Source: Natronospira bacteriovora (GTDB lineage: Bacteria > Pseudomonadota > Gammaproteobacteria > Natronospirales > Natronospiraceae). From it: a stretch of 64,000 nt of DNA. The stretch is taken from positions 1 through 64,000 of the forward strand of contig NZ_JAVDDT010000005.1 in assembly GCF_030848495.1 (NCBI RefSeq), read 5' to 3'. Below are positions 6,549-63,840 of this stretch, piece after piece. The position numbers and the translations under genes are program-made. Under the pieces are notes generated by a model. It saw nothing but the letters and a program-made list of their open reading frames with translations, ran no database searches and was not told the DNA's origin. Each line of letters starts with the position of its first letter. The stretch's first letter is position 1.

Positions 6549-7136
6549 ATGCCAAAAGATTACAAGCACAGCGGACAGGCACGCAGGAGGAAGGACGTGG
6601 ACACCACGCCGGGATGGATCTGGTTGATTGGTGGTTTCGTGCTCGGCTTCGGCACCGCCATGGGCGTGACCTGGCTGCAGCAGTCGGACACGGAGCTGCC
6701 ACGCATCGACCTGGAAGCGGCCAAGGCCGAACGGGATCGCCAGCGCGAGGAGCAGGGTGAAGAAGAGCGCGAGCGCTTCAGCTTCTATCGCATGCTGGAG
6801 AGCTTCGAAGTGGTGGTGCCGGAAGAGGAAGTGCGCATCCGCACCCCACGCACCTCCGACGAATCCCGCGAACAACCCGCGCTGCCGGCCGATGGTCGTT
6901 ACGTGCTGCAGGTGGGTTCCTTCCGCCGCGAATCGGATGCCGACCGTCTGCGTGCCGAGCTGGGCATGGCCGGCTTTGAATCACATATCCAGCGCGTGAG
7001 CATTGACGACGGCCAGACCTACTACCGGGTCCGTGTCGGCCCCATCGAAGGCACCGAGCGCCTGGAGCGCACCCGTGGGCGGCTGGAGGATCAGGGGATT
7101 GAGCCGCTGCTGATCCGGCTTCGGGATGGGGATTGA
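6549..7136 (+). CDS. ftsN: FtsN-like SPOR-domain cell division protein
   Basis: 195 residues: a basic cytoplasmic tail (1-21), one transmembrane helix (about 22-42, GWIWLIGGFVLGFGTAMGVT), a charged periplasmic linker, and a C-terminal SPOR domain (about 115-195, beginning RYVLQVGSFRRESDADRLR) that binds denuded peptidoglycan at the septum. Topology and argS linkage match FtsN, although the protein is shorter than E. coli FtsN. The stop codon TGA (7134-7136) is also the first bases of the TGAGTGC tandem array that follows, so the repeat supplies the stop. Confidence 0.8.
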   Translation: MPKDYKHSGQARRRKDVDTTPGWIWLIGGFVLGFGTAMGVTWLQQSDTELPRIDLEAAKAERDRQREEQGEEERERFSFYRMLESFEVVVPEEEVRIRTPRTSDESREQPALPADGRYVLQVGSFRRESDADRLRAELGMAGFESHIQRVSIDDGQTYYRVRVGPIEGTERLERTRGRLEDQGIEPLLIRLRDGD

Positions 7137-7230
7137 GTGCTGAGTGCTGAGTGCTGAGTGCTGAGTGCTGAGTGCTGAGTGCTGAGTGCTGAGTGCTGAG
7201 TGCTGAGTGCTGAGTGCTGAGTGCTGAGTG
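7134..7230 (+). repeat. Tandem array of the 7-mer TGAGTGC (about 14 copies)
   Basis: An essentially perfect head-to-tail array of a 7-bp unit, the left outer arm of composite element A. Because 7 is not a multiple of 3, TGA occurs in all three forward frames every 21 bp. The complementary form (CTCAGCACTCAGTACTCAG) occurs at the right end, 7623-7660. Confidence 0.97.
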
Positions 7231-7660
7231 GGGGCGTTAGAAGGTGTCGGGGCGCTGGGAGTATTGCGGCTTCGAAAGTGAGGTGTGAGGTGTTAGGTGT
7301 GAGGGGAAAGGCGGGGCGCCTTTGGCGCCCAACGGCCGGCCGTTGGCCGGCCTTGTTCGCGCGAAGCGCGGAAGCCGTGAGGCTTCGGGTTTTCACCTTA
7401 CGCCTCACGCCTCACTCCTCACGTTCGGAGCCGGCGAATGGGCGGTGGCACCGGCGCGGCTAACGACTCCGAAAAAAGCTGATCGAGGCTGAAGCCTCTC
7501 CCACAGACACGGCTTCGGCCGGCGCCACCTTCCGATTCACGAATTACGATTTTCGATTCACGCCCAATGCCAGCCGAAAGCCCCGCCCCTCCGAGAACCG
7601 CCGTCCCCTCCGACCCGCACCCACTCAGTACTCAGCACTCAGTACTCAGTACTCAGCACT
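7134..7660 (+). repeat. Composite palindromic element A (core in forward state)
   Basis: Fills the 530-bp gap between the convergent ftsN-like and Anbu genes. Order: TGAGTGC array; conserved left flank (7230-7277, with GCGTTAGAAGGTGTCGG and GCGGCTTCGAAA); inner arm of GTGAGGT iterons (7278-7304); core 7305-7390 with hairpins GGCGCC, GGCCGGCC, GCGCGAAGCGCG and a GAAGCC..GGCTTC stem; inner arm (7394-7422); right flank (GTTCGGAGCCG ... CGGCTAACG); REP-like module 7478-7505; GATTCACG iterons; CTCAGCACTCAG array. No protein gene is seen inside. Confidence 0.85.
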
Positions 7661-7666
7661 ACCCTC

Positions 7667-8399
7667 TCACTCTTCCCAATCAAACTTTGGCAGATCCATG
7701 AAGGCCTGTCGGAGATTCCTGGCCCAGGCATCCTGCATGCGGCGCCAGAAAGGATCATCCTCTTCAAAGCGCAGCTGATGTTCGAGTTCAAAGGCATCAC
7801 GCCGATAGAAGGCCAGTTCGACGGGGGGGGCCGACACTGAGGTTGGAGCGCATGCTGGAATCCAGTGATACCAGGGCGCAGCGGGCGGCCATTTCCAGGG
7901 AGATGTCCGGCTCGACGATGCGATCCAGGATGGGCTTGCCGTACTTGGTTTCGCCAATCTGCAGGAAGGGCTTGTCGCGGCTGACGCGGATGAAATTACC
8001 TTCCGGATAGATCAGATAACAGTCCGGCTCATCATCGCCCAGTTGACCGGCGAGGATGAAACTGGCCTCGGGGCGGAAGTCAGCCTGGGTGCTGCCTTCC
8101 CCGCCTCGCTGCACGCGGGTGCTGATGCTGCCGATGTATTCGGCCACATCATCCATGTGTTCCAGCTGATCCAGTGACTGCTCCGCTTCAGGGTCCTTGA
8201 GATCCCGCTGGATGCGGCTGGTCACGGCCTGGGTGGTGGCCAGATTGCCGGCCGAGAGGAGCACCAGGCAGCGCCGTTCATTGCCGGGCAACACATGCAT
8301 CTTGCTGTAGACGCTGACATCGTCCACACCGGCACTGGTTCGGGAATCGGAGGCGAGCACCAGCCCGGCCTCGCTGCGGATGGCGACGCAATAGGTCAT
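7667..8399 (-). pseudogene. Anbu-type proteasome-like peptidase, interrupted by a frameshift in a C8 tract
   Basis: The product begins MTYCVAIRSEAGLVLASDSR; Thr2 would be the N-terminal nucleophile after Met removal, as in Anbu/HslV-type Ntn hydrolases, with DSRT and a downstream Lys (KMHVLPG). Reading frame 1 runs from 8399 and breaks after residues SNLSVGPP. The correct continuation VELAFYRRDAFELEHQL lies in another frame and runs to 7667. The break is at an eight-C run on the coding strand (G run at 7823-7830); seven C would restore a 243-residue protein of normal family length. This may be a sequencing error, a true pseudogene or a slippage switch. It heads the cluster with ATP-grasp, alpha-E and metallopeptidase genes. 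Confidence 0.85.
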
Positions 8400-9807: not shown

Positions 9808-10146
9808 GTGTGAGAGGCGTGAATCGGGAGTGGTGAATCGTGAATCGAAGGAGGCGTTGATCGAGGCCGTGCCTGTGGGAGCGGCGTCCGCCGCGATCAA
9901 CGCTTGCCGGAGCCGTTAGCGGGTGGGATGGCGCCGCTGGTTTCTCGGCTCCGAATGTGAGGCGTGAGGGGAAAAGCAGGGCGCCTTTGGCGCCCAACGG
10001 CCGGCCTTAAGGCCGGCCTGGTCGCGCGAAGCGCGGAAGCCGAAGGCTTCGGGGTTTCACCTCACGCCTCACCTTCGAGGCCGCTATACCCCGAGCGCCC
10101 CGACATCCTCTAACGCCTCCTTCGATTCACGATTCACCATTCACGA
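9808..10146 (-). repeat. Composite palindromic element B (whole element reversed, core inverted relative to flanks)
   Basis: Between the pmbA start and the metallopeptidase stop. On the plus strand: GTGAATC iterons; REP-like module around 9874-9902 (TGTGGGAGCGGCGTCCGCCG); right-flank homologue in reverse complement (9903-9956); GTGAGGC arm (9957-9969); core 9970-10056 in the same plus-strand direction as element A; CACCTCACGCCTCAC arm (10058-10072); left-flank homologue in reverse complement (10073-10122); GATTCAC iterons. Flanks are reversed but the core is not, so within the element frame the core is inverted. No gene is seen inside. Confidence 0.82.
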
Positions 10147-11190
10147 TTCTCTCTTCCCTTCAATCGTGATCAGGTCGTGGATGTAGACCATCTTGTCCAG
10201 AACCGGGTCGGTGAGGGTGTAGGGATAGGCGTCGCGCAGGCCGAGGCTGCGGTTCATGAGATTGATGCTGGCACTGACCCGGTTCCAGATTCGGATCAGA
10301 TGACTGAAGTCCCGTGGTCGGTCACGCACCAGGCCAAGCGCCCAGGCGGTTTCCAGGGCATCCCGGATCTGCAGGTAGTGGCCCCAGCATTCGGCCCAGT
10401 CTTCCCAGGGATGGGAGGCCGCATAGGCACTGATGAAATTGTTCTGCCAGTCGGCAGGCGGGCCCTGTTGGTAATGACTCTCCAGGGCCTGCTGGTAGTC
10501 CAGACGCTCATCACCGAAAAGACTGCGGAAGGAGGTCAGGCGCTGGCCGTCCCGGATGAGCCGATCCCAGAAATAGTGCCCGATCTCGTGACGGAAATGC
10601 CCCAGCAGAGTTCGGGAGGCTTCATTCATCTGCTGGCGCATGGCTTCCCGGGCCACGTCATCGGCTTCCAGGATGTTGATGGTAATCAGGCCATTGGCAT
10701 GGCCGGTGAAGACCTTTCCACCCGACCAGTTGGTATCGACGAACTCCCCCGTACTCTGCTCATCCTCCATGAAGGCAAAGGCCAGTCCGGTGTCGTGGTT
10801 GTCCTGCTTGCCCTGAAAGGGCAGACCCAGTCGGAGCAGATCATAGATCAGGCGTCGCTTCTGCTGCTCCACATTGAGCCATTTGGCATGATTTCCGGCA
10901 ATCTTCAGATTGGGAATGACGCGATTCAGCCGGCAGGCCTGGCAGAAGATTTCCTCCTGCTCATCGGGCACCATCCAGTTGCAGACATTGTGCTCGATAT
11001 CATTATGGCAACGTCGATAGACACCAAGATCCCCGTCCGGGCTACGGGCCCGCCAGCGGCCGTTGCCCAGATCCTCCAGCGCCGCCTGGCTCAGGTGCTC
11101 GGGCAGAAAGCCCAGGCGACTGCCACAGGCGAGACACTGGTTGTTCTCGAAATAGAGCGTATTGCCGCAGGTGCAGCGGAAGGTATTCAT
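10141..11190 (-). CDS. Putative zinc-binding metallopeptidase (DUF2248/COG4307-like)
   Basis: 349 residues. The N-terminal ~100 residues carry zinc-ribbon cysteine pairs (CTCG, CLACG, later CNW and CQAC). The central zincin signature HEIGHYFWDRLI (about residues 203-214) gives the HExxH active site, and downstream acidic and aromatic residues (EDWAECWGHYLQIRDALETA) fit the family. It overlaps the alpha-E gene by 4 bp (11187-11190), so it belongs to the same operon. In related amidoligase clusters a transglutaminase-like protein often takes this place. Its stop (TGA, 10141-10143) and the tail residues R-E-S come from the GTGAATC iteron of element B. Confidence 0.85.
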   Translation of the reverse strand: MNTFRCTCGNTLYFENNQCLACGSRLGFLPEHLSQAALEDLGNGRWRARSPDGDLGVYRRCHNDIEHNVCNWMVPDEQEEIFCQACRLNRVIPNLKIAGNHAKWLNVEQQKRRLIYDLLRLGLPFQGKQDNHDTGLAFAFMEDEQSTGEFVDTNWSGGKVFTGHANGLITINILEADDVAREAMRQQMNEASRTLLGHFRHEIGHYFWDRLIRDGQRLTSFRSLFGDERLDYQQALESHYQQGPPADWQNNFISAYAASHPWEDWAECWGHYLQIRDALETAWALGLVRDRPRDFSHLIRIWNRVSASINLMNRSLGLRDAYPYTLTDPVLDKMVYIHDLITIEGKRES

Positions 11191-22173: not shown

Positions 22174-23283
22174 ATGAGCATCGGAATCATCGGCGCCGGT
22201 CAGCTTGGACGCATGATGGCCCTGGCCGGCTACCCTCTGGGCATGCGTTTCACCTTCCTGGACAAGACCAGCGATACCCCGGGCGCCCAGGTGGGTGACA
22301 TCGTGCTGGGCGATTTCACCCGCTCCGATGACATCCGGCGCCTGGCAGAACAGGTGGACCTGCTGACCTACGACGTGGAGAACGTGCCGGTGGAGGCCCT
22401 GAAGTCCGCTGCCGGTGACACCCCGATTCATCCCTCTCCCGCCCTGCTGGGTATCGCACAGGATCGGCTGACGGAAAAACAGGCCTTCGCCGAGCATGGC
22501 ATGGCGACCGCCCCCTACCGCACGGTGGACAGCCTGGTCGATCTGCGAGCGGCCATTGATGAACTGGGCATGCCGGCTGTGCTCAAGCGCCGGCAGCTGG
22601 GTTACGATGGCCGCGGCCAGCGCTTCATCCGCCAGGCCGGCGACATTGAGTCGGCCTGGGAGGCCCTGTCAGGCGCCCCGCTGATCCTGGAGGGCTTCGT
22701 CGACTTCGATCGCGAGGTTTCCCTCATCGCCGTTCGCAACCGCTCCGGTGAAATGGCCTTCTACCCGCTCAGTGACAACCGTCACGAAGAGGGCATCCTG
22801 CGTCTCTCCATCGCACCCTGCGCCGACCGGACCCTGCAGACCCAGGCGGAGAGCCAGATACGTTCATTGATGGATGCCTTCGACTACGCCGGTGTACTGA
22901 CGGTGGAGTACTTCGAGAAGGGCGGTGAGCTGATTGCCAATGAAATGGCGCCCCGGGTTCACAATTCCGGCCACTGGACCATCGAGGGGGCGGCCACCAG
23001 TCAGTTCGAGAACCACCTGCGCGGCATTCTCGACCTGCCCCTGGGCGACACCAGCCCCCGCGGCCACGTGGCCATGATCAACTGTCTCGGGCAGATGCCG
23101 GCCCTGGCCGACTGCATCCGTTATCCGGACGTTCACTACCACGATTACGGCAAGGCCCCCCGCCCCCGGCGCAAGCTGGGGCATATCACGGCCGTGCGCC
23201 CGGACCGGGCGAGTCTGGACTCGGTGGTGGATGAATTGCTGGCGGTGGTTCGGGCGGCGGAAGCTACGAGTGCTGAGTGCTGA
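22174..23283 (+). CDS. purK: N5-carboxyaminoimidazole ribonucleotide synthase PurK
   Basis: 369 residues of the ATP-grasp family. ATG 22174 begins MSIGIIGAGQLGRMMALAG; an upstream in-frame start would add 17 unlikely residues. Motifs: LKRRQLGYDGRGQRFI, the ILEGFVDFDREVSLIAVR lid, and NEMAPRVHNSGHWTIEGA. It makes N5-CAIR from AIR, ATP and bicarbonate for PurE. The last codons (S-A-E-C-stop) come from the AGTGCTGAGTGCTGA array that begins composite element C, so the natural C-terminus has been replaced or extended by repeat DNA. Confidence 0.96.
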   Translation: MSIGIIGAGQLGRMMALAGYPLGMRFTFLDKTSDTPGAQVGDIVLGDFTRSDDIRRLAEQVDLLTYDVENVPVEALKSAAGDTPIHPSPALLGIAQDRLTEKQAFAEHGMATAPYRTVDSLVDLRAAIDELGMPAVLKRRQLGYDGRGQRFIRQAGDIESAWEALSGAPLILEGFVDFDREVSLIAVRNRSGEMAFYPLSDNRHEEGILRLSIAPCADRTLQTQAESQIRSLMDAFDYAGVLTVEYFEKGGELIANEMAPRVHNSGHWTIEGAATSQFENHLRGILDLPLGDTSPRGHVAMINCLGQMPALADCIRYPDVHYHDYGKAPRPRRKLGHITAVRPDRASLDSVVDELLAVVRAAEATSAEC

Positions 23284-23732
23284 GTGCTGAGTGGGGGCGT
23301 TAGAAAGTGTCGGGGCACTCGGGTCTGGGGGGCTTCGAAAGTGAGGTGTGAGGTGTGAGGTGACAAGCCGAAGCCTTCGGCTTCCGCGCTTTGCGCGTGT
23401 CAGGCCGGCCGGCGGCCGGCCTTTGGGCGCCGGAGGCGCCCTGCCTTTCACCTCACTCCTCACGCCTCACGTTCGGAGCTGTCGAACGAGCGGTGGCACT
23501 GAAACCGCTAACGGCTACGACAACCGCTGATCGAGGCTGAAGCCTCTCCCACAACTCCGGCATCCTCTTACGCCGCCCTCCGATTCACGATTCACGTTTT
23601 ACGATTCACGCCCAGAGCCAACCGAAAGCTCCTTCCCTTCGATCAGCCCCGGCCCCTCCGATCAGCACCGACTCAGCACTCAGCACTCAGTACTCAGTAC
23701 TTCGCCCCCCGGCCGACCGCCTTCCGATTCAC
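23267..23732 (+). repeat. Composite palindromic element C (core inverted relative to flanks)
   Basis: Between the convergent purK and holA stops. GAGTGCT iterons; left flank with GCGTTAGAAAGTGTCGG and GGCTTCGAAA in the same direction as element A; GTGAGGT arm (23341-23361); core 23362-23446 reading GAAGCC..GGCTTC first, then CGCGC, GGCCGGCC and GGCGCC last, the reverse of element A; CACCTCACTCC arm (23449-23470); right flank; REP-like module 23526-23553; GATTCACG iterons; CTCAGCACTCAG array; GATTCAC 3 bp from the holA stop. No gene is seen inside. Confidence 0.85.
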
Positions 23733-24828: not shown

Positions 24829-25212
24829 GAGTGAATCGTGAATGGTGAATCGTGAATCGGAGGGGGGCCTTAGAAGGTGCCGAGGCGCTCATTGCTGAAC
24901 GGCTTCGAAAGTGAGGTGTTAGGCGTGAGGTGTTAGGCGTGAGGCGTGAGGCGTGAGGTGAAAGGCGTGAGGTGAAAGGCGGGGCGCCTTTGGCGCCCAA
25001 CGGCCGGCCTTTGGCCGGCCTGAACGCGCGCAGCGCGGAAGCCGGAGGCTTCAGGTTTTCACCTCACGCCTCACACCTCACACCTCACGTTCGGAGCCGT
25101 CGAACGAGCGGTGGCACTGTGACCGCTAACGGCTCCGACAACCGCTGATCGAGGCTGAAGCCTCTCCCACAACCCCGGCTCCGATCGACGCCCCCGTCCG
25201 ATTCACGATTCA
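24829..25212 (+). repeat. Composite palindromic element D (core in forward state)
   Basis: Between the holA start and the znuB stop. GTGAATC iterons; left flank (CCTTAGAAGGTGCCGAGG ... GGCTTCGAAA); a long inner arm of about eight GTGAGGY units (24911-24973); core 24974-25058 in the same order as element A; inner arm 25060-25088; right flank with GTTCGGAGCCGTCGAACG; REP-like module 25144-25171; GATTCACGATTCAC, whose last TCA is the znuB stop. No gene is seen inside. Confidence 0.85.
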
Positions 25213-26025
25213 CTCGCCCGGCGCACCGGAGAGGCGGGCAGCCCGGTTGGCGAACAGACGCAGGGTGGCGGTCAGGGCCAGGCAGAGCACCAGGGTCGGG
25301 CCGAAGGGCTGATCCAGCAGCATGGAGGCCACGAAAGCCGTCAGGTAGCTGGCCACCGCCAGGACTATGGTCAGCATCAACGCCCGACGCCAGCCACGAG
25401 CCAGCACGAAGGCCACCCAGGCAGGTACGAAGAACATGGCGAAGGCGGCCATGGCACCCATGGCCAGGGTGCCCAGAACCGCGGCAACCACCACCAGGGC
25501 ACCAAAGACCAGACGGTGAGGCCAGGCCGGAATGCGATTGGCGGAGAAGTAGTCCGGGAAAAAGCGCTCGGTGAGCAGGCGCGGCGAGAGCCAGCTGAGG
25601 CTGGAAAACAGCGCCAGTATCAGCAGGGAAGCCGCGATCAGATGCGGCTTGCTGGTGAAGTAAAGCTGACCGCGCAGGAGAGCCTCACCCACTACTTCAC
25701 CCTGATGGGTATTGGCGGCCAGCATCAGGGCACCACCCCAGCCGAGCAGGAGCATCAGACCATAGTGATTGTTGCTGGCCTTGGGCAGCAGCCCCTTCAG
25801 CAGGGCCGCCAGGCCGGCGAAGCCCAGGGCACCCGCCAGGGCCGGAATACCCAGAGGCAGGGCGGCAATGCCACCGGCCGCCGCCATATGCGACAGACCC
25901 AGGGCGGCCAGCCACTCCTCGCGCATGCGCAGGTAGGCGCCGATCAGGGACAGGCCCACGGCCAGCAGCAGGCCAATCAGAAACGGCAGGCGAAACATGG
26001 GGTCGAAGAGAATGAAATCGCTCAT
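25210..26025 (-). CDS. znuB: Zinc/manganese ABC transporter permease (ZnuB-like)
   Basis: 271 residues with about eight hydrophobic segments, of the ABC-3 metal permease family (LRMREEWLAALGLSHMAAAG is the conserved early cytoplasmic loop). It overlaps the ATPase gene by 4 bp (26022-26025) and ends in GGCGAGTGA, whose TGA is part of the GTGAATC iteron of element D. With the ATPase and periplasmic binding protein it forms an importer. Zinc is favoured by the binding protein type and the His-rich neighbours. Confidence 0.88.
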   Translation of the reverse strand: MSDFILFDPMFRLPFLIGLLLAVGLSLIGAYLRMREEWLAALGLSHMAAAGGIAALPLGIPALAGALGFAGLAALLKGLLPKASNNHYGLMLLLGWGGALMLAANTHQGEVVGEALLRGQLYFTSKPHLIAASLLILALFSSLSWLSPRLLTERFFPDYFSANRIPAWPHRLVFGALVVVAAVLGTLAMGAMAAFAMFFVPAWVAFVLARGWRRALMLTIVLAVASYLTAFVASMLLDQPFGPTLVLCLALTATLRLFANRAARLSGAPGE

Positions 26026-31176: not shown

Positions 31177-31366
31177 TTTCTCGTAGTCGTAATCGTAATC
31201 GGGTTTTGTACACAGCAACGAGCCACGCTCCACGAGCGGCAAGCTAAAAGCCGAAAATCCCGCAGCCTCAGGTTTTTCCTCGTAGTCGTAATCGTAACCG
31301 TAGTCGTAATCGGGTTTTCCTTAATACCCGAAAATGTCGATTACGATTACAATTACGACTACGAAA
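31177..31366. repeat. CGTAGTCGTAATCG-family composite palindrome, copy 1
   Basis: Fills the gap between the hydrolase start and the tldD stop. It contains TCGTAGTCGTAATCGTAATC at about 31181, a 7-bp-period segment (AGCAACG, AGCCACG, CTCCACG, AGCGGCA) at about 31213-31244, a second CGTAGTCG array at 31280-31313, and its inverted partner GATTACGATTACAATTACG at 31338-31364. The loop itself has a GGGT/ACCC hairpin. An eight-base A run touches the tldD stop. Confidence 0.85.
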
Positions 31367-31371
31367 AAAAA

Positions 31372-40140: not shown

Positions 40141-40315
40141 CTCGTAGTCGTAGTCGTAATCGGCATTTATCAAGCGACGAGCGACGAGCAGCGAGCGACG
40201 AGCAAAAAACCAGAAACCTGCACGGCGAGGTTTTCGTCATTTAGCTCGTCATTCGTCACTCGTAGCTCGTTGCTGCTTTCGTAATGCCGATTACGATTAC
40301 GATTACGACTACGAC
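40141..40315. repeat. CGTAGTCGTAATCG-family composite palindrome, copy 2
   Basis: Outer arms CTCGTAGTCGTAGTCGTAAT (40141-40166, running on to CGGCAT) and its inverse ATGCCGATTACGATTACG (40284-40315). Nested inner arms have a 7-bp period: GCGACGA units at about 40173-40203, and at 40242-40278 their approximate inverse. The core is a short A-rich/GAGG segment. It fills most of the maf-rlmH gap (40052-40344); nothing else is seen there. Confidence 0.87.
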
Positions 40316-44251: not shown

Positions 44252-44276
44252 TGAGTGCTGAGTGCTGAGTGCTGAG
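44252..44276 (+). repeat. Short TGAGTGC array (solo arm)
   Basis: About 3.6 copies of the same 7-mer as element A, 17 bp after the dgcA stop, with no matching inverted arm nearby. It is followed by GAGGGGCCGTGCC, a 13-mer also present in the core of the 4426-4695 palindrome, and an 18-bp perfect palindrome AGCCTCTGATCAGAGGCT at 44323-44340. Confidence 0.8.
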
Positions 44277-63736: not shown

Positions 63737-63751
63737 TGAGTGCCCGGCTCT

Positions 63752-63824
63752 TCTCGTAATCGTAGTCGTAGTCGTAATCGGCTTTTCCAGACTTAAAAAT
63801 GCCGATTACGATTACGACTACGAC
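63752..63824. repeat. CGTAGTCGTAATCG-family palindrome, copy 3 (simple form)
   Basis: CTCGTAATCGTAGTCGTAGT onward (63753-63782) pairs with GCCGATTACGATTACGAC and more (63801-63824) around an 18-base loop (TTTTCCAGACTTAAAAAT). It lacks the inner 7-mer arms of copies 1 and 2. It may act as a hairpin between the convergent operons. Confidence 0.87.
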
Positions 63825-63840
63825 GGTTGTCGAATCCCGC

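Follow-up and report, generated by a model that had tools for sequence, protein, structure and literature searches.

How does an intergenic gap of more than 500 bases come to be built as a series of layers that mirror one another, and is such a gap one element or a set of unrelated repeats? These questions are raised by positions 7134-7660 of the window, i.e. the whole 64,000-nucleotide stretch of DNA of the soda-lake bacterium Natronospira bacteriovora that was analyzed, for which an initial annotation had proposed a single composite palindrome, longer and more ordered than REP or ERIC repeats.

Structure of the element at 7134-7660

The gap is occupied by an inward-folding composite repeat, in which all of the layers named in the initial annotation, i.e. 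the arrays, the flanks, a four-hairpin core and a REP-like hairpin, were found in their places. From the left, layer A (7134-7230, +) consists of 14 perfect TGAGTGC (=GTGCTGA) units and is, as in other copies, outermost; it is followed by linker F (7231-7277, +; GGGGGCGTTAGAAGGTGTCGGGG...GCGGCTTCGAA), identified by blastn against the linker consensus, and by layer C (7278-7313, +), which is made up of GTGAGGT/GTTAGGT-type 7-mers. The core comprises hairpin 1 (7314-7330, GGGCGCC TTT GGCGCCC), hairpin 2 (7334-7352, GGCCGGCC GTT GGCCGGCC), hairpin 3 (7358-7370, CGCGC GAA GCGCG) and hairpin 4 (7371-7386, GAAGCC GTGA GGCTTC, then GGGTTTT). The right arm, all of it on the minus strand, has layer C (7393-7421, CACCTTACGCCTCACGCCTCACTCCTCACG), linker R (7422-7531), which holds a GGAGCC...GGCTCC-type stem and a REP hairpin (7480-7505, TGATCGAGGCTGAAGCCTCTCCCACA), layer B (7532-7562, CGATTCACG-type units, i.e. 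GTGAATC), linker P (7563-7621), and layer A (7622-7661, CACTCAGTACTCAGC...), with 5 to 6 units in a GTACTGA/GTGCTGA mix. Layers B and P, both lacking from the left arm, had been missed in the initial annotation; the mirror build that it proposed holds for the order of the layers, but not as a strict mirror of sequence, the inner flank being F on the left and R on the right.

The proposal that the gap can fold on itself over more than 500 bases is well supported by calculation. The predicted RNA fold of 7134-7660 has an energy of -320.2 kcal/mol, compared with a mean of -219.8 kcal/mol for dinucleotide shuffles (z -14.6; 0/100 shuffles as good), and the DNA fold gives z -13.0 against shuffles. 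The tandem 14-mer has 24 matches in the window, where 0.5 are expected.

On one side the element adjoins a SPOR-domain gene (Pfam SPOR), preceded by an ORF that we take to encode arginyl-tRNA synthetase, and the stop codon of the SPOR-domain gene is the first TGA of the left A array (7134). On the other side is a proteasome-type peptidase ORF (Pfam Proteasome) in the opposite orientation. The peptidase gene (7667-8399, -) spans two reading frames (7667-7957 and 7797-8399), and eight consecutive G residues occur near 7825; this may reflect a sequencing error or a real frameshift.

Copies in the genome and order of the layers

In the host's own genome (G000; 3.0 Mb in 15 contigs, 97% complete), the 391-bp interior of the element gives 87 BLAST matches. 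Annotation of layers in the regions around these matches, through pattern searches and blastn with consensus linker sequences, revealed at least 31 core-bearing composites of 195-594 bp each, 12,863 bp in total; as several contigs terminate within an element, this number is a minimum. Four of the composites lie in the window, i.e. the focal element, 9812-10151 (B R C core C F B), 23268-23701 (A F C core C R B P A, with the core inverted) and 24831-25213 (B F C core C R B). The sequence GTGCTGAGTGCTGA, allowing at most one mismatch, occurs at 295 places (both strands) versus 0 for a reversed control pattern. The interiors are about 70-90% identical between sites and no pair of composites exceeds about 90% identity over its length, so no recent burst is seen.

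The layers follow a fixed order from the core outward: C (GTGAGGC), then F or R, then B (GTGAATC), then P, H or Q, and finally A (GTGCTGA). The composite is a set of palindromes, one within another, each having inverted arrays of its own 7-base word as its boundary, and the linkers at a given level are interchangeable. Among 300 ordered layer pairs within arms, 283 obey this order, 7 tie and 10 break it, compared with a maximum of 183 obeying pairs in 2,000 shuffles of layers within arms, and only 1 of 214 layer tokens lies on the wrong strand. The exceptions are, in our judgement, mostly accounted for by brief (15-base) matches to the C pattern or by an adjacent REP pair; one breach is genuine (C5:216080), with an A array inside the B and H layers. 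The initial view of one composite element that is longer and more ordered than REP or ERIC repeats is thus upheld by its at least 31 copies and their strict order. The architecture is modular in that each layer is dispensable and the arms of one element frequently differ. All 15 arms with B as well as A have a linker separating these arrays; 27 of the 31 composites have linker F in at least one arm, F on one side is accompanied by R on the other in 17 of the 23 elements with both readable, and in two copies (C5:23268 and C8:3) the core is inverted relative to the A-array arm.

With respect to established classes, the genome has many intergenic tandem 7-bp arrays, as is typical of short tandemly repeated repetitive (STRR)-type or heptameric simple repeats; however, a lone array type is not the whole element, which combines linkers and a core with as many as three kinds of array, single arrays existing beside the composites. 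Its 31 copies also have the general build of a MITE, i.e. a dispersed, short, non-autonomous element with terminal inverted repeats, inverted array ends being present in those composites that have both arms.

Partial forms are numerous, and the GTGCTGA, GTGAATC and REP layers all occur also without the core. A left A array at window 44252-44276 (+; C5:44252) stands alone, with neither partner nor core, and a second one-armed array is at C1:440803. A arrays accompany a hexamer palindrome or array at partial sites (C3:313808, C4:38804 and C5:140361), A brackets surround a REP pair at C3:366184-366357, and a core-less A-P-B-R|R-B-H-A form at C6:9251-9795 has all of the outer layers and the REP arms, so that what the brackets enclose is replaceable within one genome. 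A palindrome of TCGTAA-type hexamers (linker H type) stands alone, without A, B, C or core, at window 31278-31367. Inverted intergenic arrays of other short units are also present in the window, i.e. AGCGACG at 40173-40314, TCGTAA at 31180-31367 and CGATTA at 63751-63826.

The core-bearing copies are unevenly placed: contigs C4 (with dnaA at C4:98824), C5, C6 and C8 have many, none was found on C1 (0.58 Mb) and none is reported on C2, the contigs themselves breaking at repeats. A largest-gap test on this distribution reaches only mild significance (P 0.046 for one gap, 0.008 for two), and a pattern search for a dif site, by which the replication terminus might be located, gave no match.

The hairpin core

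Alignment of 25 cores gives a mean column identity of 87%, with the four stems nearly invariant and change mostly confined to loops and spacers. For stems 1-3, 97% of cells pair (98% for hairpin 1, 94% for hairpin 2 and 100% for hairpin 3), hairpin 4 being left out of the count as the alignment slips there. Variation in hairpin 1 lies mostly in the loop; the single compensatory change is at one pair of hairpin 2, in two copies. The core therefore manifests conservation rather than covariation, and provides no genuine argument for selection acting on RNA structure. An Rfam search found no family at gathering score, with weak matches far below it.

The REP layer and the RAYT gene

Linker R contains a REP hairpin of the form GTGGGAG AGGCT...AGCCT CGAT. 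The only Y1/RAYT-like gene found in the genome (Y1_Tnp; C5:201536-201865) has, on both sides, REP pairs of the same kind, and in the genus relative G002 the corresponding position is occupied by a related gene, with 63% identity. Because the same REP flanks the Y1 gene, the composite includes, as one of its layers, a REP of the RAYT-associated type. The linker R REP also occurs in pairs elsewhere, REPIN-like and without arrays.

A many-copy short palindrome (20-40 bp) that flanks a RAYT (Y1) gene was found in the linker R REP only, and one or two REPs do not make up the whole element, the arrays, the core and some linkers being without REP. The contrast with REPs drawn in the initial annotation needs a qualification, as the composite contains a REP and so is not unrelated to them. 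The Y1 protein is a candidate enzyme for the REP part only; nothing ties its gene to the heptamer arrays or to the core.

Distribution in related genomes

The best relative of the neighbouring protein (82%) is from Natronospira sp. CSSed10_283R1 (G001). The full composite is absent from both this genome and the second genome of the genus, G002; simpler forms are present in G001, where un-nested A...A' brackets surround a 15-bp spacer (locus L267), an intrinsic-terminator-like hairpin (L269) and a short spacer (L273), and where one-sided A arrays also occur. No match to the tandem GTGAGGC pattern was found in G001, and in G002 none to the 391-bp interior or to the tandem GTGCTGA and GTGAGGC patterns.

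At conserved neighbours, the gaps of G002 that correspond to elements at C4:38.8k (35 bp), C5:199.5k (160 bp), C5:216.1k (168 bp) and C8:124.8k (113 bp) are without the searched layers, being short or occupied by other repeats. The G002 gap that matches C4:223.4k (L189, 17701-18019) holds a different nest, i.e. a CACGGAG-unit palindrome around a REP pair, its counterpart in the host genome being an A-H-B element. The intergenic DNA of the congeners has diverged so far that neither a target-site duplication nor an exact empty-site junction can be read at their empty sites.

Among 369 genomes of the class, GTGCTGA arrays occur in three besides the host's, in unrelated families. About a dozen genomes give matches, which in the loci read are mostly GTGAGGC-type arrays, and no match in these genomes covers the whole core. 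In one such locus (L207) GTGAGGC arrays enclose an ACACGGAA palindrome. Neither plasmid and phage collections nor a distant blastn search with the 391-bp interior gave a match. The distribution is patchy, and the composite is specific to this species among the genomes searched. In three species of the host's order (L033, L036 and L202), GTGAGGC or GTCTCAC arrays follow AT-rich stretches that resemble one another, in which a promoter-like TTGACA lies a few tens of nucleotides ahead of the array.

One difference in gene order (loci L098/L185) touches the focal element. The SPOR gene and a gene that we take, from reading of its sequence, to be NtrC-like face each other in G001 and are on separate contigs in the host genome, where the SPOR gene (window 7134) and apparently the same NtrC-like gene (C13:14319) each adjoin a composite. 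This separation suggests a rearrangement with breakpoints at composites. At the element gaps, synteny with the sampled part of G002 is conserved in 6 cases and broken in 2, with 8 undecided, i.e. there is no clear excess of rearrangement over other gaps, and a role of the composites in recombination is a suggestion only.

Position at gene ends

The edges of the elements abut stop codons. Of 51 gene 3' ends that face A- or core-bearing elements, 38 are within 20 nt of the element edge and 21 have their stop codon inside it, which is TGA in 20 of the 21; gene 5' ends (36) lie at a median of 72.5 nt from it, individual distances being subject to error as the gene calls come from a simple codon-usage model. 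Read inward, the A, B and C units contain a stop triplet, and read outward they contain none, the variant GTTAGGC excepted; 18% of all 7-mers possess such an inward-only asymmetry by chance. Since the unit length of 7 shares no factor with 3, each reading frame runs into a stop within 21 nt. Array units can serve as ready-made stop codons at gene ends. Convergent gaps are enriched for core elements (9/27 versus 10/113 element-free gaps, p = 0.0026); the other core composites lie between tandem (13/27) or divergent (5/27) genes.

These positions raise the possibility of a selected gene-end device, i.e. a two-way insulator whose arrays stop translation and whose hairpins terminate or protect transcripts. 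The stop-abutting edges with their preference for TGA, the inward stops of the A, B and C variants tested, the convergent enrichment and the high degree of stem pairing across 25 cores are all consistent with it, as is the G001 pair of A arrays that brackets an intrinsic-terminator-like hairpin (L269). The tandem and divergent sites need no two-sided device, however, and the sites are not common to congeners; moreover, purifying selection on insertions would also leave stop-adjacent copies, and covariation in the core is nearly nil. We regard selection for such a device as the most viable of the alternatives considered, albeit an unlikely one.

Discussion

We consider that the element is probably, though far from certainly, a modular repeat in which STRR-like heptamer arrays and REPs were nested stepwise and then spread as a unit. 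Simple heptamer-bracket palindromes, which are still un-nested in the sister species, would represent the older state; further palindromes, such as REP pairs and the unit of C arrays and core, would have been inserted at the bracket centres, where the loop of an extruded hairpin may have offered a single-stranded target. The composite would then have spread as a unit, non-autonomously, as we infer because the layer-junction sequences are common to copies. Array lengths would change independently through replication slippage, and recombination between inverted arrays could flip or swap the inner modules. The direction of nesting, i.e. outside-in or inside-out, is not proven, because inner-less and outer-less forms both exist.

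Any effect on the host would most likely be at gene ends, where the arrays would stop genes entering from either side in all three frames, and where the hairpins would end or stabilize transcripts. In our reading, such an effect is tolerated, and possibly useful, rather than being the cause of the spread; both the mode of spread and any function are inferred.

Growth in place, in which slippage makes the heptamer arrays, template switching across a quasi-palindrome yields an inverted copy of each, and repeated rounds build the nested arms such that the whole never transposed, would account for the free variation of array lengths between arms and copies (14 versus 5-6 units at 7134-7660) and for the one-armed arrays at C5:44252 and C1:440803. 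It is somewhat less likely than a gene-end device; independent growth at 31 sites would not yield the same linkers, core and junctions, nor interiors as similar as those observed between sites. A REP/BIME/REPIN family of the usual kind, with simple repeats beside it, is improbable: the REP hairpin in linker R and the RAYT gene flanked by REP pairs fit such a family, but 10 arms have the composition C-F-A, and others C-F-B, without a REP, neither the core hairpins nor the heptamer arrays are REP sequences, and the REPIN-like pairs occur separately without arrays. A family of structured non-coding RNA genes, to which the very stable fold and conserved core might point, is more improbable still, given the lack of an Rfam match at gathering score, the occurrence of the core in either orientation to the arms and the free variation of the arms. 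Chance assembly of unrelated simple repeats in one gap, which had been put forward as the explanation should the layers never recur together, can effectively be dismissed in that, although each array type is also found alone elsewhere, they do recur in 31 copies in one order, far beyond the shuffle maximum, with linkers and core in common.

The composite is built in part from known kinds of bacterial repeat. STRRs of cyanobacteria (Mazel 1990, cited in PMC2670836) are intergenic tandem 7-bp units that can form hairpins, as are the arrays reported here; in the case described in the cited article they lie near a gene 3' end, with a suggested role in transcript stability or termination. The STRRs in that account are single arrays or hairpins, in contrast with the ordered nesting of several families around a core. 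GGGAATC heptamers of Xanthomonas and Nostoc (Rehm et al. 2015, PMC4692102), which differ by one base from the layer B unit GTGAATC, form intergenic arrays near stop codons, with 70-75 inverted convergent pairs per Xanthomonas genome; as described there, they comprise one unit family in a single layer, with a preferred copy number of four and G4 formation, and, unlike the composite, no linkers, core or nesting are described.

The TAACTGA direct repeats of marine Beggiatoaceae, cyanobacteria and Bacteroidetes (MacGregor 2015, PMC4679880) have, like the units reported here, a stop in every frame when read one way and none when read the other way, and their patchy distribution led to the suggestion of horizontal spread. 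They differ from the composite in lying mostly just upstream of start codons and in one orientation, with a single inverted case. In the REP/REPIN system (Bertels and Rainey 2011, PMC3116915), REP pairs are inverted repeats that flank the RAYT gene; the linker R REP and the REP-flanked RAYT gene correspond to this arrangement, whereas REPINs are doublets without heptamer arrays, core or linkers. In a limited search of the open-access literature, we found no account in which several heptamer families, together with linkers and a core, are nested in a fixed order.

More tentatively, the elements may belong to an undescribed class of mobile palindromes with inverted 7-mer ends, which prefer the hairpin centres of palindromes, so that families stack in order. 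If so, the CACGGAG nest of G002 and the ACACGGAA nest at L207 would be independent instances across the gammaproteobacteria.

Heptamer arrays are over-represented in many bacteria, and their function and spread are left open in the papers cited above. The series of composites, together with the simple forms of the sister species, constitutes a natural stepwise record of the assembly and dispersal of arrays, REPs and hairpins, and makes insertion into palindrome centres versus growth in place a testable question.
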